This document shows positions 1,616-13,180 of a stretch of 20,235 nucleotides of DNA, one piece after another (positions within the stretch are counted from its first letter, which is position 1; every line of letters starts with the position of its first letter). The position numbers were made by a program, and so were the translations under genes. Origin of the DNA: a virus; the IMG/VR virus record IMGVR_UViG_3300042868_001070, positions 1 to 20,235 of that record, one strand, 5' to 3'. The notes under the pieces were generated by a model. That model was not told where the DNA came from. It did not search any database and worked only from the letters and a program-made list of their open reading frames with translations.

Positions 1616-2143
1616 CTAGGCTACTGTGACTATTCCATCAGAGCCTGATGTAATACCATACAAGCTGACAGTTGAGCCAGCTATAAAGTTTGAGCTAAAA
1701 AAGTTTGACAGCTTGAAGCTAGTTATAGCACCTGTGCCTGTCCAAGCATTAGCAACTATGTTGAGGTAGGCACTAAACTGCCCCGTTGCGTTGTTTTCAT
1801 TTACCGAGTCTGTGCTAAAAGTTTTGGCTGCTGATGAGGTGTAGTTGGGTATGTAGTTTATGTCATTTGAGAATGTATTAGCTGTGTTTGATGTCCCAGG
1901 TATCAAAGCAAATCGAGTATAAGAACCATTAGATGTGGCAACAGTCGAGCCATCGGCGACTAACTCTCTATATGTGTACCCAGTAGTAACTGTGTTAAAC
2001 TCTAGTTTTACAATTTCAACAGTAGATGCTCGACTACTTCGCAAAGAAGAAAAAACAATTAAGTCTGTAAAGGTTTGCGGTATAGAAGTAAACTCGATTG
2101 AGGCTGCTGCTACTGTTAGGGTTTTGGTTTCTATAAGCTTCAC
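1616..2143 (-). CDS. Tail-fibre-like protein, paralogue 3 of 3
   Basis: This 175-aa Ser/Thr/Asn-rich beta-type protein shares a frame with the two genes upstream of it. It starts with an LIETKTLTVAAASIEFTSIP-type strand followed by a YxxL-like segment. It ends in an ITSFKLSNF...GSTVSLYGI motif. It lacks the clean RFNGDxGxNY motif of its two neighbours, so it is the most diverged copy, and it carries a short extra tail (TSGSDGIVTVA). The start is GTG at 2143-2141, overlapping the TGA of the previous gene. The family is common near phage tail tips and is probably a fibre or receptor-contact component; the exact role is unknown. Confidence 0.7.
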   Translation of the reverse strand: MKLIETKTLTVAAASIEFTSIPQTFTDLIVFSSLRSSRASTVEIVKLEFNTVTTGYTYRELVADGSTVATSNGSYTRFALIPGTSNTANTFSNDINYIPNYTSSAAKTFSTDSVNENNATGQFSAYLNIVANAWTGTGAITSFKLSNFFSSNFIAGSTVSLYGITSGSDGIVTVA

Positions 2144-2619
2144 GAGATAATCCCATACAAGCTAAATGTTGAACCAATGGCATAAGGGTTAGTCCCGCTT
2201 ACTGCAATAGTTGTGACAGCACTTGTGTTTGCCCATCTGCCAAACCATGCGTAGGTTGTAGTTGCACTCTCGTTCATTCTATTCAAGACAGTCTTGTGCT
2301 TATCAGTAGCACTGTAATCCATAATGTGAAAGACAACATTGTTTCTAACTGCTGAGTTAAAACCACCAGTCAAAAGCGAAGTAGTGGTTGATTGCCCTGA
2401 GCTAGTCCCTGAAGTACCACCTAACATAAATACATATGGATAGTTAGAACCAGTATCGCCATTAAACCTTATGCTTGCGTTACCAGTCCCTGTTGAGTAA
2501 GTTCCTTCAATAACTAAAACCAAATCTCGATAAGTACCAGGAATAGATGAAAAAGTAATGGTTGTGGCTGTTGCTGTAAGTGTCCTAGTCGCTAAGGCTT
2601 TATATGTTGGGGTAGGCAT
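2140..2619 (-). CDS. Tail-fibre-like protein, paralogue 2 of 3
   Basis: This 159-aa protein has the family landmarks in order: an ATRTLTATATTITFSSIPGTY-type first strand, IRFNGDTGSNYPYVFMLG near residue 50-67, and a central HIMDYSATDKHKTVL segment. It ends with TSAVTTIAVSGTNPYAIGSTFSLYGI. The same landmarks occur in the gene upstream (RFNGDSGNNY, IVDAYSSTKNKV, FSLYGI), so these are tandem duplicates. The composition (Thr, Ser, Gly) fits a trimeric beta-rich tail fibre or tail-tip decoration. The ribosome site is weak. The role in host recognition is inferred from position and composition. Confidence 0.75.
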   Translation of the reverse strand: MPTPTYKALATRTLTATATTITFSSIPGTYRDLVLVIEGTYSTGTGNASIRFNGDTGSNYPYVFMLGGTSGTSSGQSTTTSLLTGGFNSAVRNNVVFHIMDYSATDKHKTVLNRMNESATTTYAWFGRWANTSAVTTIAVSGTNPYAIGSTFSLYGIIS

Positions 2620-2623
2620 AGTC

Positions 2624-3175
2624 TTACTTTATTCCGTAAAGGCTAAACCGAGAGCCGATTCTAAATGAGTCGGCAAAGTTTGATAATTCAATGCTAGTAA
2701 CTGAAGCTGTGTTTATCCATAAACCAGCGTTTAGACCAATTAGTGTTTGTCCCGTAATGTGACCACCAGTAAAAGCTCTAATGACCTTATTTTTAGTGCT
2801 TGAATAAGCGTCAACAATGTCAACGATGTTAGCAGCAAAAATTGTGGAGCTACCCCTGACTACGAGACCAGCCAAAGCTGATGATTGGGAGGCAGCCGAG
2901 TACGCATTTAGAACGCTGCCGTTACCCCAGAGTCTGTGATGAGCATAGTTGTTTCCGGAGTCACCATTGAAACGCAAACGCACATTGTCCATGTCGGCTG
3001 TGGCGTTGGTGTTTCCTGCTACAAAACGAATTTGTAAATGCTCGTAAACAGAAGCGTAAGTAGCAAGACCTGAAAAAGTAACTGAGGCAGCTGCCGTACC
3101 TAGTATCTGTGTTTCAATTAGCTCGTAATCCGAACCAACAGCCGATGCCGAAAAAATCCCAAATGGAATCAGCAT
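2624..3175 (-). CDS. Tail-fibre-like protein, paralogue 1 of 3
   Basis: This 183-aa protein begins MLIPFGIFSASAVGSDYELI, then ETQILGTAAASVTFSGL, followed by LRFNGDSGNNYAHHRLWGNG (about 66-85). Later landmarks are ANIVDIVDAYSSTKNKVIRAFTGG, a GLWINTASVTSIELSNF strand and a C-terminal GSRFSLYGIK. It is the most complete of the three tandem copies. The ATG sits two bases after the stop of the preceding gene and lacks a clear ribosome site, so translation is probably coupled. I recognise this as a recurring family near the tail tips of actinophages and marine phages. It is likely a fibre or receptor-binding subunit, with the precise role unknown. Confidence 0.78.
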   Translation of the reverse strand: MLIPFGIFSASAVGSDYELIETQILGTAAASVTFSGLATYASVYEHLQIRFVAGNTNATADMDNVRLRFNGDSGNNYAHHRLWGNGSVLNAYSAASQSSALAGLVVRGSSTIFAANIVDIVDAYSSTKNKVIRAFTGGHITGQTLIGLNAGLWINTASVTSIELSNFADSFRIGSRFSLYGIK

Positions 3176-3177
3176 GG

Positions 3178-3567
3178 TTATACGCTCGCAGCGTTACCGA
3201 TTATGCGGTAGGTATTGGTTGAAACACAAAGAACAGTAACAGCCTCGTATCGCTGACCAAGCCTGTAAGCTGTTCCAGCCAATCCTCGACCAGCCAAAGA
3301 TACAACAGTTCCTGAGCGGTTGATAGTCAAAGCACCAGCTCCGTCTTGCAAGATGTCAACACGCTCTCCAGGCTCAAAGGCTGTGGCAGTTCCAATGCTC
3401 ACAGTTACAGCAGAACCAGAGGTAAACATTAAGGTTTTGTAGCGGTCAGCGGTTGCGACTGTGTAAGTGGTGGCAGTAGAGCTAGTAAGGGTTACCTCGT
3501 TAGATAGGTAAGTATTTACATCTGCGGCATCTAGTCTTGTAAAAGACTCAAATACTTTTCTTGGCAT
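3178..3567 (-). CDS. Small tail-fibre / baseplate-associated protein
   Basis: This 129-aa protein has an N-terminal segment VFESFTRLDAADVNTYL (about 5-21), which recurs in small tail proteins of actinophages. The rest is Ser/Thr/Val-rich beta structure (TSSTATTYTVATADRYKTLMF, VDILQDGAGALTI) resembling repeats in fibre and baseplate proteins. A good ribosome site, AAGGAA, precedes the ATG. It sits between the FN3 tail-tip protein and the three fibre-like paralogues, so it is probably part of the distal tail structure, perhaps an adaptor. No enzymatic motif is visible. Confidence 0.72.
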   Translation of the reverse strand: MPRKVFESFTRLDAADVNTYLSNEVTLTSSTATTYTVATADRYKTLMFTSGSAVTVSIGTATAFEPGERVDILQDGAGALTINRSGTVVSLAGRGLAGTAYRLGQRYEAVTVLCVSTNTYRIIGNAASV

Positions 3568-3577
3568 GGTTTCCTTA

Positions 3578-4996
3578 CTATGGGCCTAGTATGTTCTGGT
3601 TGAGGATACCTTTGGTTTCGCTGTCCAGAATAAACATATTGCGTTCGTTCCTAAGTCTAAATTCTATCTCATGGCTGGTGATGGTTATGCGGTGCGAAAT
3701 ACCTGTGATAAGTCCAGCCGTAATCTTTGGGTCACCGACCCTGTTTGGGGTAAAGCTAACGCTGATGTAATCATCAAGCTCAAGGTCTAACACTTCAAGG
3801 CGTTGCTCGATGCTTAGGTTGCTAAGGTCAACAGTAATTGAGTCAACCCTTAGAGTCGGCTCGTAGTAGTAAGTCAGTAGGTCAGCAGCTACCTCAAAAG
3901 CACCTTGGTCAGTTGAGTTTAGAAGGTTGGTAATTGAGTAGCTTCTTACGCCATAGAGTCGCTTAGAGCCTGGTGCTGAGGCTAATTGAACCTCGGCAAA
4001 GGGGTCTTGAGTAGTTCCTTCAACCTCGTTGTAAAGAAACTCTGACCCATAAGACACATCTATCTTAGTGAACCGAATACCTGTACCTGAATCTGTGAAC
4101 TGAACTGGAGTTGGCTCAGGGTTGGCAACTGTCACAGTTAGCAAAGATGGTGCGTTACCAGCAGAGGCAGGGAAGGCAGGGGTAATCTCTACTGATGCGC
4201 TGTAAGGGCCAGAGTAGTCAGAACCAGCAGCCACAGCAACAGCGTTGATAGCGGCAACTCGATAGTAATACTTAGTACCTGGGGTTAGACCTGTGTTGGT
4301 GTAGGTAAGAGTAGTTGTACCTGTATTAGCTACAAGGGTTGAGAAGTTGATGTTGTCGGTTGAACGCTGAATCCTGTATCCAGTAACAGCCTTGCCACCA
4401 TTATCTGCTGGTGCTGTCCAAGTAATCGTTGCGCTAGTTCCTGTTGAGCTGGCAGTAGGGGTGCCTGGTGCAATAGGCAGAGTGTCATAAACAACCTCAA
4501 AAACTAGCGAACCATTTGAAGGTGTAATCCCACCACCACTAACAAGTCCATTGTCAGTAAAGTTTCCACCTGCTGAAGTGGTGTCCATCTTGATTGAAGC
4601 ACCAAAGGCTGTGTCAACAGAGTAGGTTACTTGAGCTGAGGTTTCTTTTGTAAAACCAATCCAATAGCTTGTATTAGCAAAGATAGAGCGTGTTAGACCT
4701 ACACCTACTTGATAAGGCGTTTGAGAGTTAGGCAGCGTAAAGACATTAGAATAGACCCCACCCTGTCCAGCGCTGTTCCACATAGCAAAAGCAGTTGTGG
4801 CGTTTGAGCTGTTGTAAGCCGTTAGCTCTATGTAAAGAGCAGATACTAAACCTGGTTTGGCGGCAGCTCCAGTCTTACCAGGCGCATCCCTGCCAGAGAT
4901 GTCGGGCATGGTAATAAGTTGGGCAATGTTGTATGGCGGTCTAAAACCATAGAACGGGTCAGCCCTTCTAACAGCACCATTACTGTAACTGGTCAT
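3578..4996 (-). CDS. Distal tail protein with FN3 domain and C-terminal half of a tail-hub module
   Basis: This 472-aa protein has three parts. Residues about 45-170 form a beta-rich domain (YIELTAYNSSNATTAFAMWN, SYWIGFTKE) of the kind seen in sugar-binding or fibre proteins. Residues about 173-273 are a fibronectin type III domain (PGTPTAS, ATITWTAPADNGGKAVTGYRI, YYYRVAAIN). Residues about 297-472 (VQFTDSGTGIRFTKIDVSYG, then FLYNEV, then ISVSFTPNRVGDP) look like the second half of the distal tail/hub protein that many actinophages carry as one chain with the type of N-terminus encoded in the gene just upstream. The two genes share a frame and are separated only by the stops TAG and TAA. It probably sits at the tail tip and contacts the host surface. 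Confidence 0.8.
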   Translation of the reverse strand: MTSYSNGAVRRADPFYGFRPPYNIAQLITMPDISGRDAPGKTGAAAKPGLVSALYIELTAYNSSNATTAFAMWNSAGQGGVYSNVFTLPNSQTPYQVGVGLTRSIFANTSYWIGFTKETSAQVTYSVDTAFGASIKMDTTSAGGNFTDNGLVSGGGITPSNGSLVFEVVYDTLPIAPGTPTASSTGTSATITWTAPADNGGKAVTGYRIQRSTDNINFSTLVANTGTTTLTYTNTGLTPGTKYYYRVAAINAVAVAAGSDYSGPYSASVEITPAFPASAGNAPSLLTVTVANPEPTPVQFTDSGTGIRFTKIDVSYGSEFLYNEVEGTTQDPFAEVQLASAPGSKRLYGVRSYSITNLLNSTDQGAFEVAADLLTYYYEPTLRVDSITVDLSNLSIEQRLEVLDLELDDYISVSFTPNRVGDPKITAGLITGISHRITITSHEIEFRLRNERNMFILDSETKGILNQNILGP

Positions 4997-4999
4997 TTA

Positions 5000-6181
5000 C
5001 TACAGCACCCACTCAGTAGCGTAAGATTCAAAGGCTCGCTGTGGTTGGTAGTCAGGTGCTTCTGGGTCTGTTGAGTTGTAAACAGGGTCATTAGCACCAT
5101 CAAAGTAAGCATCTACAACAGGTGTCGCTTCAATCAAAACAGCGTCAAGAAATACTGCGTTAGAGGATGGTGTCTGCCTAACGCTGATGCCAGAGAATAA
5201 GGTGCTGGCACTCAAACCTGTGTTTATTCTTGTCCACTCAGAGCTAGTCACAGATGCCGTTGAAGCTGCGTGTTGCGAGTAAGCGGTTCCGCTAGGTGAG
5301 GTAAGGCTTGCCACCTCGACCACTACAGTTCCAGAGCTTGCCTTGGCGTAAAGAGATAGGTTGTATTCCACGCCGACCTCACTTGTAAAGTATTGCTCAG
5401 CAGTAGCACCAGCGGCTAGTTGTCCACTTGCTGTGCCGATGTAAGCCTGAGCTGTTGACCTAGTAATTGTGCCAGCCGTAGAAATCCAACCAGTTGTGTT
5501 GTTCTCAAAGCTAGGGTTGTAACAAAGGTTGAGTCTTGTGTATTCGTAGCTTGGGTTGTTGACATCGTTGTTTCGGCTTCGGAATACGATGCGACCTGAC
5601 TTGTCAATAAAGAGTCTGCCTGGTTCTGCTTTTTCAACTTCTTGTAAATAACTTAGAGCGTTAGTTCCATCGGTAACTTCGTAGTCACCCATAGTTGCCA
5701 CACCAGGAGAGATAAGTCGAGATGATGAAGGCCAAACTGCTGTGCCACCAACTTCAGGCTTTAGCAACACATTTAGGATTCTTGCGCTACTGAGTTGTTC
5801 GGTTGGGGTGTAAGCAGCAAGAGTCTGGTTGTTTAGGTTCCAGAAAGCATCAGAAGCAACGATTTCAGCAATGGACTCACCTGTTGGGGAATAGCTAAAG
5901 TTCCAGTCAGTAATGTAGCCAGTAAAGACAATTTGGTTTTCTTTGTAAACCTTTACCTCACCAGTTGGAACAATCAAACCCTGGTAGGGGCTAGGTCCGT
6001 AGTCAGGGTCATATTGTCTGCGCTCGTTGTTTAGCTGAATAGAACAAGAAGCAGCGTTGAAGGTGTCCTGCTGTGGGTCTTTACCTCTTGTGACAGATAC
6101 GCTGATTACATCGGCGCTGATGTCATTGAAGTTGACAGGTACGCCAGATTCAGCGAATCCAAACTCTACTTTGATTGACAA
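5000..6181 (-). CDS. Tail-tip/hub protein, N-terminal half with C-terminal carbohydrate-binding-like domain
   Basis: This 393-aa protein follows the tape measure, where siphoviruses encode distal tail or hub proteins. Residues about 1-205 (SIKVEFGFAESGVPVNFNDI, SCSIQLNNERRQYDPDYGPS, FTGYITDWNFSYSP, LFIDKSGRIVFRSRNND) match the N-terminal half of an actinophage minor tail/baseplate protein. Residues about 216-352 (CYNPSFENNTTGW, LSLYAKASSGTVVVEV, AVFLDAVLIE) resemble a CBM_4_9-type sugar-binding jelly roll, followed by AYFDGAN. The start is TTG at 6181-6179, immediately after the tape-measure TAA, and a GGAGAG ribosome site six bases before it supports this choice. The chain stops before the expected second hub half, which is in the next gene. 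Confidence 0.82.
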   Translation of the reverse strand: MSIKVEFGFAESGVPVNFNDISADVISVSVTRGKDPQQDTFNAASCSIQLNNERRQYDPDYGPSPYQGLIVPTGEVKVYKENQIVFTGYITDWNFSYSPTGESIAEIVASDAFWNLNNQTLAAYTPTEQLSSARILNVLLKPEVGGTAVWPSSSRLISPGVATMGDYEVTDGTNALSYLQEVEKAEPGRLFIDKSGRIVFRSRNNDVNNPSYEYTRLNLCYNPSFENNTTGWISTAGTITRSTAQAYIGTASGQLAAGATAEQYFTSEVGVEYNLSLYAKASSGTVVVEVASLTSPSGTAYSQHAASTASVTSSEWTRINTGLSASTLFSGISVRQTPSSNAVFLDAVLIEATPVVDAYFDGANDPVYNSTDPEAPDYQPQRAFESYATEWVL

Positions 6182-8185
6182 TTATGCTCTCCACGCTGTA
6201 CCTGATTGACGCTCAAAGTCCTTGATGGCGTTTACCACTGCTCTACCGACATCTGAGCTAGTAGCCACACCACCAGTAACTTCAATGCTGTAATTGTTGA
6301 CTGTTCCTTGGTTGGCAAAAGCTCTTTCAGCCCCAATCCCAGCAATACCACCAGCCAAGTTACCGAACTCACTAAAAGCAGAGTTCAGCTCTTGCAAGAA
6401 ACCACTTCCGCCACCAACAAGTGCTTCAGCGAGTTTAGCACCTTCTATTGGGCCAGCTCCAATTACCTGTTGAAGCAAAGTTGCATCTAAACCTTGCTCG
6501 GATAAAGTCCTTATGTTTCTAGCAAAGGCTTTAGTTTTTTCAAGTAATTTACCTATGTTTTTGGTTATCGAGTTGACCGAATTACCAAGGTTAGGCAAAG
6601 TAAAGCTTGACATAATTGAGTCTTTTATTTGACTAAACAAGCTCTTTACGGCTGAGTTAAAAGACTCAAAAGCAGACTGTCTTTTATCGAGTAACTCTTT
6701 TTCCTTACGAGCCGCTTCTTCTGCTGCCTGTTGAGCTTTAGACTTGCCACCGCCACCCCTTGGGGCTATCGGGGTAGGAGGCGTTGGGGGTGGTGGGGCT
6801 GGTTGATTAGGCTTGCTTGAACCACCGAACTTTTGTTGCATTTGGCGTTCGATTGAATCCGCTGTTCCTGAGAGTGACCTTGCATAGTTGTATTGAGCAA
6901 GGTTCGCTCTTTCCCAGGCATCAGCAGTCATGCGGATTTGGTTATTGTGTCCATCTAGCGTGAGTTGGTTGGCCTTGTCCCATTCAGCTAGGTATTGCTG
7001 AACTTCGAGTTTGTTTGCGTTAAGAGTGTCTTTTAGGTCAATTCTTTTTCTAATCTCTCCACCAGCATCAAACGCTAAAAACGCACTAAAGTCAGTAAAA
7101 AACAAACCAAGTTGTTCGCCCATGACCTGAAAGCCAATAATTGTGTTTTCAACAATCATCAACACATCGTGTAAAAGGTCAGTAAGTATCCATATCAGGC
7201 CGTTTAGACCTTGGAAAAAATCACTTACAGAGGCGCCTTTTCCAAAAATCGTTGTAAATAAAGACTCAAACTGAATTACAAGCGCTGAAACGCTTTCACC
7301 AAATTCGGTGGTTGGGTCCATGCCTTGTTGAAAGATTCCAACAATACTTGTAAGAATTTCTGATAAAAAGCCAAAAGCAGATTCTAAACCAGGAGTAATG
7401 TCCTCAAGAAGTTCTCTAAAAAGTTCATTCAGGTCAGCTACCGCAGGAATAAGCTGCGCACCAAGAAGTGCTTGAAAGTTTTCAAAGGTAGCACCAAGCT
7501 TCTTTTGTTCAACATAAAGGCTTCCGCTTTGTTCGGCAAAAGTTCCTAGTGCGTCTGCGGACCTTTGATACAAAAGCTCCAACCGAATTGTCTGTTCAGC
7601 ATTTCGCCTTGCAGCACCCTCAAGTTGGTCTAGCCCTCTCGCGGCAAGCTCAGAGTTGATTTCGCTCTGCTTCATAGCGACACCGAACTTCTCAATCGGG
7701 TCGTACTCACCTCGGAACAAGGCAGTCATACCAAGCAATGCCTCTTGGACATCGTAGCCATAGAGGGCAGATAGGTCAGTAGCTAGTCCGATAAGTTTTT
7801 GTGTTTCTACTGCAACATCGCCCATAGCAAAGCCAGATTGCTTTAGAACCGAACCAATAAAGGTTGTTGCCTTAGCTGCCTTTGACTGGCTCAAACCCAT
7901 TTCAACAGCGTTTTGGCTAAATTGCTCCATTTGAGGCGCAAGGTTTCCAAAAACCTTCTCAACACCGAAAAGGTTTCGCTCTAGGTCACGAGCAGCTTCA
8001 ATAGACTCTCTACCAAAGCTAATTGCCTTGGCTGTAACACCAAAAGCTGCTAGTGCGGTAGCGGCCTTGCCCAGCATGGAGCCTATTCCACCGATTTTGC
8101 CGCTAAAAGCACCTAGCTCGTTGGTAGCTTGCTTTATTCCATCGCCCTTGAAGGTGCTGACGATGTTCAAGAACATATTGCTCAT
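6182..8185 (-). CDS. Tail tape measure protein
   Basis: This 667-aa protein sets tail length and is expelled during DNA injection. The N-terminal third (LERNLFGVEKVFGNLAPQME, MGLSQSKAAKATTFIGSVLK, ALLGMTALFRGEYDPIEKFG) matches TP901-type tape measure proteins. Hydrophobic segments lie at about 264-290 and 326-362. A Pro-rich stretch (about 459-475) and a Gly/Lys linker then lead to a charged helix (about 483-505). Length scaling of roughly 0.15 nm per residue suggests a tail near 100 nm, which is an estimate. The ATG overlaps the TGA of the upstream gene (ATGA). It is the longest gene in the window and sits directly before the tail-tip genes, as expected. Confidence 0.93.
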   Translation of the reverse strand: MSNMFLNIVSTFKGDGIKQATNELGAFSGKIGGIGSMLGKAATALAAFGVTAKAISFGRESIEAARDLERNLFGVEKVFGNLAPQMEQFSQNAVEMGLSQSKAAKATTFIGSVLKQSGFAMGDVAVETQKLIGLATDLSALYGYDVQEALLGMTALFRGEYDPIEKFGVAMKQSEINSELAARGLDQLEGAARRNAEQTIRLELLYQRSADALGTFAEQSGSLYVEQKKLGATFENFQALLGAQLIPAVADLNELFRELLEDITPGLESAFGFLSEILTSIVGIFQQGMDPTTEFGESVSALVIQFESLFTTIFGKGASVSDFFQGLNGLIWILTDLLHDVLMIVENTIIGFQVMGEQLGLFFTDFSAFLAFDAGGEIRKRIDLKDTLNANKLEVQQYLAEWDKANQLTLDGHNNQIRMTADAWERANLAQYNYARSLSGTADSIERQMQQKFGGSSKPNQPAPPPPTPPTPIAPRGGGGKSKAQQAAEEAARKEKELLDKRQSAFESFNSAVKSLFSQIKDSIMSSFTLPNLGNSVNSITKNIGKLLEKTKAFARNIRTLSEQGLDATLLQQVIGAGPIEGAKLAEALVGGGSGFLQELNSAFSEFGNLAGGIAGIGAERAFANQGTVNNYSIEVTGGVATSSDVGRAVVNAIKDFERQSGTAWRA

Positions 8186-10833: not shown

Positions 10834-11475
10834 TTACTCCCAGCCGTTCTCACGCCTTATGTCTAGTGACCAGTTGCCAGCGGTGTAATCATCGTTGTGA
10901 ATCTTTGACTGAAAGTAAGCCTGATTTTTGACAAAGGTTTTCGTGTTTTTGTCTTGATACCCAGCCTTGATGGTCGAGCTGTTATCGTGTCTGTGCTTGA
11001 TGTCCAGCAACCGAATGTTGATTCCAGCAAACTCGGCTCTGCGAGCATAGTCATTGTCCTCAAAGTAGGCAGGAAACAGGGACTCGTCAAATAGTCCTAT
11101 GTCGCTGACTACCTCGTCACCTATAACAAAGGCTTGCCAATGCGGTGGCTCACCAGTCAAGGTTATTTCGTCTCTGCGAGCCTTTGCTAGTTCCTCAAGC
11201 GCACCTGGCTCAAAGACAACATCGTTAGAAGCGATAAACCACCTAAAGGCGTATGGGAATGACCGAATAGCCAAGTTCCACGAACCCGCCACACCTAGAT
11301 TGGCTGGCATAGATAGGACAGTTACTTTCTTAAAGTTCTCGTTGAAGGTTAGGTCTGGCTTGCCAGCTCCGTTGTCAATTATTAGCAGGTGGTCAACAGG
11401 CACATCCACGCTGTCCAGCATCCGTTGAAGTAAGTCATAGCGATTCAGGACTGGGACTGTTAGGTTCTCAAGCAT
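10834..11475 (-). CDS. GT2-family glycosyltransferase
   Basis: This 213-aa protein (from ATG 11475-11473) has the short N-terminal Rossmann-like start of GT-A enzymes: ENLTVPVLNRYDLLQRMLDS, then HLLIIDNG. NLGVAGSWNLAIR and FIASNDVVFEPGALEELA follow; the latter carries the acidic metal/sugar-nucleotide motif. FPAYFEDNDYARRAEFAG is a typical acceptor/catalytic segment. It probably transfers a sugar from a nucleotide donor to a protein or glycan. The open frame extends to 11556, but the extra residues lie inside the methyltransferase gene. The chosen ATG overlaps the methyltransferase TGA by eight bases, indicating coupling. The target is unknown; virion protein or host surface glycan are the two options. 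Confidence 0.8.
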   Translation of the reverse strand: MLENLTVPVLNRYDLLQRMLDSVDVPVDHLLIIDNGAGKPDLTFNENFKKVTVLSMPANLGVAGSWNLAIRSFPYAFRWFIASNDVVFEPGALEELAKARRDEITLTGEPPHWQAFVIGDEVVSDIGLFDESLFPAYFEDNDYARRAEFAGINIRLLDIKHRHDNSSTIKAGYQDKNTKTFVKNQAYFQSKIHNDDYTAGNWSLDIRRENGWE

Positions 11476-12001
11476 TTGCTTTCTTTTCCCCATAGAAGTA
11501 AAGGTCACAAGAGTCAGCGTTGTAGTCAAAGTAGTAGTTCTCAAACATCTCATCAAGGTTGAACTCAGCCCTAAAGTCCTGCTCTGTTAGATTGCGGTAA
11601 TAATCCCAACCGAGTGTCAGGGGTGACGAGCCAGGGTCAGACCTTGTAGTGCCATGCTCGGCTCTGCCTTCTGAGGCACAGGTCATCATTACATACTTCT
11701 TGCTCATACGCCACATATTGCGAAAGGTAGCAACCCACTCAGGGTTATGCTCAAAGCACTCAGCAGACACAGCCACATCAAAGCTGTTGTCAGGGTAGTC
11801 AAGGTTCTCACCATTACAGACAACATCTACATCTCTGCCCTCGGCTACATCAGCACCAATGTACCGAGTCGAGTCAAAGAAATCTCGGACTGTGCCGTTG
11901 ATGTTTAGACTGCCAATCTCTAGGACTTCAACACCTGTAAAGGCTTCGGGTGACTTGTTCTTGACACCCTGAAAGAAGTCCCTTTGCTGACTGTGTGCCA
12001 T
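11468..12001 (-). CDS. Class I SAM-dependent methyltransferase
   Basis: This 177-aa protein has the SAM-binding motif I VEVLEIGSLNINGTV (about 24-38). YIGADVAEGRDVDVVC (about 47-62) carries the acidic residue after strand 2, and LDYPDNSFDVAVSAECFEH (about 67-85) resembles Methyltransf_11 motifs. It lies between two glycosyltransferase genes, with its ATG directly after the first one's TAG and its stop overlapping the second. This makes O-methylation of a sugar or a protein-linked glycan the simplest idea. No DNA-methyltransferase motif (such as DPPY or NPPF) is visible, so it is unlikely to modify phage DNA. Substrate assignment is inference. Confidence 0.8.
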   Translation of the reverse strand: MAHSQQRDFFQGVKNKSPEAFTGVEVLEIGSLNINGTVRDFFDSTRYIGADVAEGRDVDVVCNGENLDYPDNSFDVAVSAECFEHNPEWVATFRNMWRMSKKYVMMTCASEGRAEHGTTRSDPGSSPLTLGWDYYRNLTEQDFRAEFNLDEMFENYYFDYNADSCDLYFYGEKKANA

Positions 12002-13180
12002 CTACTTCAACAGCTCTTTTAGAACAGGCATCCAGTTCTCTTGCCAGACCTTTTCGTGGTCATAGGCTTGAGCGAACTCCACAGCTTTAGCCGACTTGCC
12101 CTTGCCTCTTGCGTAAGCCTGTTCTAAAGCTTCTACTATTTCTGGAACCGAAGGCACATGCCAGAAAGAGTGTTGTGCAGGGTCGTAGAGTGGCTGACCT
12201 GAGATTACCCAGCCATCTCCAACTAGCTCTGGACTAGCGGCAAAGTTACTCACGATAACAGGAACACCACAAGCCTGAGCCTCGACTGTTGGAATACCAA
12301 AGCCCTCACCATAGCTAGTAGCAAGCATTACATCCCAAGACGAGTAGATGCCAGCTAAAGTTTCTTGAGACATTCCATAGCGGTAAGCCAATGGGTCAGG
12401 GAAGGTTAGGTTGTCTGTCGGGATACCGAGTAGCTGAGCAAGAGCAATCAAGTTCCAACCATGCTGTGAGCTTGCATCTGCGTGAACATACAACATAGCG
12501 TCAGGATGCTTACGAGCAAACAAAGCAAAAGCCATAAAGTTTTCTGAGTAAGCCTTGCGGTGCAAGATGCCTGATGACTTGTTAGCAGCGTTCATACCGA
12601 CAATAAAGCGACCATCCTCAAAGCCCATAAACTCGGCGATTGGCTGACCCTTGATGTTGTCAGTCTGACTGAATACTTTAGTGTCAATGCTGTGAGGTAC
12701 ATAGTGACCCTTGACTCCTACTTGCTCAATCTGCTGTAAACCGAATTTGCTCATAGCAAGCGGTGTGACATTTTCTTTTTGTAGCCATTTCAAAACTGCT
12801 GGTGGAACTGGGTTGTGGTCAATAGGTGTCCAGCTTGCAATAGGGATTGAATCAAAAGCTTTATTGTTTAGCACCCAGACATCGTAAAGAGTAATCAGCA
12901 AGTCGGGCTGGTCAGGGTTTAGAGCTTTCCAATGCTTGTGATGAGCTGGGGTTACATCGTTTGAGTAAGACTCATTGCCTCTTGCGTAAACAGGTATCTC
13001 ACCGAAACCTGTGTCGTAGGTTGTGTTGACACCTTCGTTGCCGTAGTTGGATAGCGAAGCGACATCAGCTCCGTCACGCTTCAGTAACTTTACAAGTGCC
13101 TCGGTTGCCTGTCCGTATCCTGTCGGTTGTCCAGGTGAGTTGGAAAAGACTGAAACTGTCCCTTTTATCTTTTTAGTCAT
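12002..13180 (-). CDS. GT4-family (GT-B fold) glycosyltransferase
   Basis: This 392-aa protein has the two-domain GT-B layout. The N-terminal domain contains SPGQPTGYGQATEALVKLLK, a Gly-rich acceptor loop. The C-terminal domain has GRFIVGMNAANKSSGILHRK and the GT4 signature EGFGIPTVEAQACGVPVI, an E-x7-E motif that binds the nucleotide sugar. It is the first gene after the capsid terminator and starts a tight three-gene cassette with the methyltransferase and GT2 enzyme. It probably adds a hexose-type sugar; the acceptor could be capsid, tail or a host surface polymer. Its ribosome site is modest (GAAAG before ACCTACATG). Confidence 0.85.
   Translation of the reverse strand: MTKKIKGTVSVFSNSPGQPTGYGQATEALVKLLKRDGADVASLSNYGNEGVNTTYDTGFGEIPVYARGNESYSNDVTPAHHKHWKALNPDQPDLLITLYDVWVLNNKAFDSIPIASWTPIDHNPVPPAVLKWLQKENVTPLAMSKFGLQQIEQVGVKGHYVPHSIDTKVFSQTDNIKGQPIAEFMGFEDGRFIVGMNAANKSSGILHRKAYSENFMAFALFARKHPDAMLYVHADASSQHGWNLIALAQLLGIPTDNLTFPDPLAYRYGMSQETLAGIYSSWDVMLATSYGEGFGIPTVEAQACGVPVIVSNFAASPELVGDGWVISGQPLYDPAQHSFWHVPSVPEIVEALEQAYARGKGKSAKAVEFAQAYDHEKVWQENWMPVLKELLK

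Follow-up and report, generated by a model that had tools for sequence, protein, structure and literature searches.

A putative viral tail hub encoded by two adjacent genes with adhesion-type domains at the break

Organization of the locus

The stretch of viral DNA analysed here, referred to as the window, is 20,235 nucleotides long (IMG/VR record IMGVR_UViG_3300042868_001070). Two adjacent genes, A and B, lie on its minus strand directly after the tail tape measure gene, whose stop codon overlaps the start of A (TAATTG). The features of this region are the following:

6182 to 8185, minus strand: gene for the tail tape measure, immediately before A (best match to PHROG tape measure families at E 7.1e-18)
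5000 to 6181, minus strand: gene A, 393 amino acids, TTG start and TAG stop, encoding the putative hub N-half, a CBM and a conserved C-terminal tail
5570 to 6181, minus strand: hub N-half (hub-N, residues 1-204 of A), a predicted tube-type beta barrel with a helix/sheet part (39% identity to phiPsal1 gp19, profile match in at least 135 single chains, AlphaFold secondary structure)
5219 to 5530, minus strand: CBM_4_9 domain (PF02018, residues 218-321 of A), at the C-terminal side newly made by the break (E 1.3e-6 in Pfam, which passes the curated cut-off)
5003 to 5131, minus strand: C-terminal tail of A (residues 351-393), predicted to be disordered (low pLDDT) and nearly invariant among close relatives
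4994 to 5002, minus strand: gene junction, TAG TAA ATG in one frame
3578 to 4996, minus strand: gene B, 472 amino acids, ATG start, encoding a beta domain, an FN3 domain and the putative hub C-half
4481 to 4996, minus strand: beta (jelly-roll-like) domain (residues 1-172 of B), the fastest evolving domain
4238 to 4468, minus strand: fn3 domain (PF00041, residues 177-253 of B; Pfam E 1.9e-12)
3581 to 4105, minus strand: hub C-half (hub-C, residues 298-472 of B), a predicted helix/sheet part with a second tube-type domain (31% identity to phiPsal1 gp19, profile match in single chains)
3178 to 3567, minus strand: small gene after B

A sequence-only reading of the window had placed two adjacent genes at 3578-6181, in the same frame with TAG TAA before ATG, and had proposed a CBM-like domain in the first gene and FN3 in the second, with sugar-binding insertions at the break. 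We recovered both genes (A 6181..5000, B 4996..3578) and the junction sequence as described; the two domains are Pfam CBM_4_9 and fn3, and adhesion-type domains lie exactly at the break, CBM_4_9 on the A side and the beta and FN3 domains on the B side. Sugar binding by the inserted domains is a prediction at the level of the family. No Pfam family was matched above its cut-off by residues 1-204 of A or by the final 175 residues of B.

The two genes occupy the position of a hub gene, within the tail module and directly after the tape measure, an order shared by the window (6181-8185) and phage phiPsal1 (L001:3683-7092); no Dit (distal tail) gene was recognised between the tape measure and hub genes of either. 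The small gene after B has a relative behind the single-chain hubs of L109 and L112 as well, indicating that the position of the hub is syntenic. Searches for a sequence link to Mu gp44, p2 ORF16 and A118 gp18 were negative, a PDB profile search gave no sequence match for the hub, and GpP-like_1st gave only weak sub-threshold matches. No sequence link to a proven hub having been found, we use the name "hub" on the grounds of position, size and fold. The presence of CBM_4_9 at the break is as expected of an "evolved Tal", the carrier protein being presumably gp27-like.

Other genes of the window deserve mention. Three consecutive genes at 1616-3175 (minus strand; 183, 159 and 175 amino acids) resemble paralogues, with "SVTFSSIP..Y.DL" and a C-terminal "SLYGI" in common, and L112 has comparable tandem genes behind its hub; they are a possible receptor-binding set. 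Between the capsid and neck genes, at 10834-13180 (minus strand), are two glycosyltransferase-like genes and one methyltransferase-like gene. phiPsal1 has the same arrangement (group I GT, SAM methyltransferase, GT2), and glycosylation of the virion or of the host surface is a possible role.

Single-chain relatives, predicted fold and selection

When phage records were searched with tblastn, phiPsal1 gp19 (AUV61428.1) was the sole relative of A as well as of B. Within this single 395 amino acid ORF, adjacent stretches match residues 16-204 of A (39%) and then residues 298-471 of B (31%), with nothing large between them. We then ran half-hub profiles over fetched IMG/VR loci, keeping the best 80 loci per scan, and found at least 135 distinct ORFs that carry both halves in one chain, where the linker at the position of the break is always 9-14 amino acids long. 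At least 23 distinct gene pairs besides that of the window, from many metagenomes, are split hubs, all with inserts. The homology to the phiPsal1 gp19-like single-chain tail proteins is significant over both halves, and a profile comparison of the composite with the single chains gave 384 aligned columns in which the entire insert appears as one gap. The statement in the sequence-only reading that the halves are continuous in single-chain versions proved accurate, and the case it had named as contrary, a second gene devoid of hub similarity, was not encountered, the hub C-half being present in every B. Instead of the single continuous polypeptide of the phiPsal1 gp19-like proteins, the window and its at least 23 split relatives have two genes.

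CBM_4_9 is absent from the single-chain relatives. No single chain with an insert, no split hub without one and no other type of split was seen among the loci listed (two rounds, best 80 per scan), and hence no intermediate that would place insertion before fission, the order put forward in the sequence-only reading; some viral matches obtained with Foldseek, among them A0A6J5SSE1 (802 amino acids) and A0A6J5PV29 (798 amino acids), could be single chains with inserts. The search for a donor of the beta domain returned the split clade only, at this sensitivity, and GTDB genomes yielded no relative. An actinobacterial host is suggested, from phiPsal1 only.

AlphaFold (AF2) was applied to a read-through composite of the window, in which the stops were modelled as linker residues of a single chain. 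With split relatives only in the alignment, the mean pLDDT was 63.4, with high confidence in the inserted domains but not in most of the hub halves; once single-chain relatives were added, it was 79.8, with both hub halves mostly at 80-90. In the predicted secondary structure, A has a barrel and a helix/sheet part, and B has a helix/sheet part followed by strands, an order that would place the cut between the two tube domains. Foldseek viral matches are single-chain proteins of 300-420 amino acids (TM 0.78-0.89 of target length) aligned over 786-903 columns, and such alignments must bridge both hub halves. Fold matches in the PDB, among them lambda J, diffocin, the HFTV1 tail and chains of contractile injection systems, had low TM throughout with this multidomain model. 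An arrangement of two tube-type domains flanking helix/sheet parts would fit the AF2 secondary structure; the viral matches span the halves, and the TM to PDB hubs is low. Both halves are compatible with one predicted fold, which does not imply that the separate chains meet. As for the composite hub fold anticipated earlier, one fold for both halves is seen in the homology-guided model only, and they stay unfolded without the single-chain rows.

All domains are under purifying selection. Against the eight closest relatives, dN/dS was 0.03-0.12 for hub-N, 0.07-0.13 for hub-C, 0.01-0.13 for the CBM and 0.03-0.23 for the beta domain, and every domain remained below 0.25. The beta domains of L037, L038, L044 and L086 have an identity of only 28-45%, as opposed to 63-86% for the hub halves. 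The last 43 residues of A, despite their predicted disorder, gave values of 0.01-0.05 against the same eight relatives, indicating constraint on the very chain end that the split created. This tail (5003-5131, minus strand) is among the most conserved parts of A and a candidate docking segment.

We consider it likely that A and B are the halves of one Tal/gp27-type tail hub, in which insertion into the linker roughly coincided with the gene break and which is now encoded by two coupled genes. Separate genes can diverge in role, and the co-assembly of A and B is something we infer; it is conceivable, though unlikely, that the halves no longer make up one hub, A closing the tube alone or with another protein and B being a peripheral adhesin with hub-C as its anchor. 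However, identity is similar and dN/dS low in hub-N and hub-C alike, and we saw no other hub candidate in the part of the window that separates the tape measure and lysin genes. The halves also diverge together, with a distance correlation (r 0.94, or 0.89 without L108) comparable to that of the single chains (0.94), although gene linkage alone could yield such a value.

Origin and nature of the gene break

In a tree of the two hub halves, which is unrooted, all 17 split hubs used fall on one side of a branch with support of 100/98. The deepest split member, L108, whose hub halves are 48-49% identical to those of the window, is already split and has CBM-like, beta and FN3 domains. Because the most distant relatives found, L063 and L067, are both single chain, we take insertion and fission to be the derived state. 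An ancestral split form, from which the single chain would have arisen by fusion and loss of the inserts, would be allowed by the unrooted tree alone, but is very improbable given these two distant single chains and given that described hubs consist of one chain (PMC13252515, PMC10038345).

At the 20 junctions listed, the spacing of stop and start goes from an overlap (ATGA or GTGA) to a gap of 3 bases. The frame of B relative to A is the same in the window and its close relatives, and other frames occur among more distant members, where the overlap forms are TAATG, ATGA, TAGTG and GTGA. The first stop is always a stop, and the codon after it in close relatives is TAA, TAG, CAG, TCA, CCG, CTA or CGC. 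Contact between stop and start is therefore kept as the frame varies, which points to translational coupling and argues against read-through as a general mechanism; A and B fit the description of translationally coupled genes. The tandem stop TAG TAA of the window is incidental and not conserved.

The frame shared in the window and its close relatives is what one would expect if read-through of the stop codon, or frameshifting, caused A and B to be made in part as a single polyprotein, the working hub then being a single chain with inserts. We regard this as highly unlikely: as a general mechanism it is ruled out by the relative frame, which differs among relatives, the drift of the codons around the stop leaves no single recoding signal conserved, and the window itself has two successive stops. 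A stop inside a usually continuous protein family could also reflect a sequencing error, an assembly error or a pseudogene, but the chance of this is negligible and it is ruled out by conservation and dN/dS, with at least 23 further distinct pairs from many metagenomes under purifying selection throughout. The sequence-only reading had also argued against a simple sequencing error, and that conclusion is upheld by the further conserved pairs; its argument from the two stops falls, since the tandem stop is unconserved.

A second division and the proposed hub assembly

In L041-L043, three contigs with two distinct sequences, B is divided again, inside the beta domain (L041:1223-3304, L042:7179-9260 and L043:6120-8201 for the twice-split hub). 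The first part of the beta domain forms a 65 amino acid ORF, followed by in-frame stops (two to four), AAGGAAG and ATG, and then by a 621 amino acid ORF, in which about 210 additional residues precede the remainder of the beta domain, FN3 and hub-C. A fragment, L098, carries part of the same insert. Comparison of L041 with L042 showed 16 synonymous and 0 nonsynonymous codon changes in the 65 amino acid ORF (about 2e-10 if sites were hit randomly), and 61 synonymous and 14 nonsynonymous changes in the long ORF. To judge from these substitutions, the 65 amino acid piece is very probably translated and needed, and pieces of the hub protein would thus stay functional as separate chains. This second cut, with its small piece under strict purifying selection, suggests that assembly from fragments has been tolerated more than once. 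Downstream of the three-chain hub, at L042:9803-11293, is an open ORF of at least 497 amino acids, very glycine-rich and unlike the short genes found there in the window.

We propose that, in the ancestor of the split clade, which consists of uncultured phages, adhesion-type domains came into the linker between two tube-domain modules, and that the hub gene was broken in two by this event or by one near to it. The N-terminal half (tube 1 and helix/sheet) and the C-terminal half (helix/sheet and tube 2) would reassemble as a ring of three A and three B chains, replacing the usual homotrimer with its pseudo-six-fold symmetry. The new C-terminus of A would then display the CBM toward the cell surface, and the new N-terminus of B would likewise display the beta domain on an FN3 spacer; more speculatively, the disordered conserved tail of A may help to dock the chains. 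On balance we lean toward a tail-tip ring that is an obligate hetero-oligomer (three A and three B, to which the L041-L043 lineage would add a chain of a third kind), repeated insertion with fission being a means for phages to hang adhesion domains on new chain ends and spare the essential assembly protein.

The tail hub is conserved and mechanically critical. It has been described as a homotrimer of a single kind of chain, in which the two tube domains mimic a hexamer. If our proposal is true, the two tube domains have gone back to separate polypeptides in this clade, and the cut has served to expose domains of host-binding type. This would be a natural experiment that undoes an old domain fusion, and it would point to a testable way for tails to acquire recognition modules. 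In the literature searched, which takes in few subscription journals, we met no account of a hub that is split within its gp27-like part.

The pseudo-hexameric ring of the Tals is built from subdomains 1 and 4, and the intervening subdomains 2 and 3 are of helix/sheet type (PMC9437275). The linker that joins the two tube domains of T5 pb3 has expanded to larger domains (PMC10038345). The mycobacteriophage hubs are described as homotrimers in a 6:6:3 core (PMC13252515). The hubs of T5 (pb3), Douge, Claus, Corndog and Mysterious, also homotrimeric, share with the window hub the presumed role of closing ring under the tape measure (PMC10038345, PMC13033339, PMC13252515), but they have one chain per protomer with both tube domains. 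Pontimonas phage phiPsal1 gp19, annotated as "putative tail fiber", is homologous over both halves and has the same place after the tape measure, but is one 395 amino acid chain without inserts. The window hub is best read as a split "evolved Tal". The insertion of domains into the gp27-like part is already known from the evolved Tals of siphophages, where the inserted domains are likewise directed to the host surface (PMC7291167; for Brussowviruses PMC9437275). Those, however, are described as single chains, and in Brussowviruses the insertion lies between subdomains 3 and 4, whereas the window hub has its inserts at the meeting point of the two helix/sheet parts, which is also where the chain breaks.
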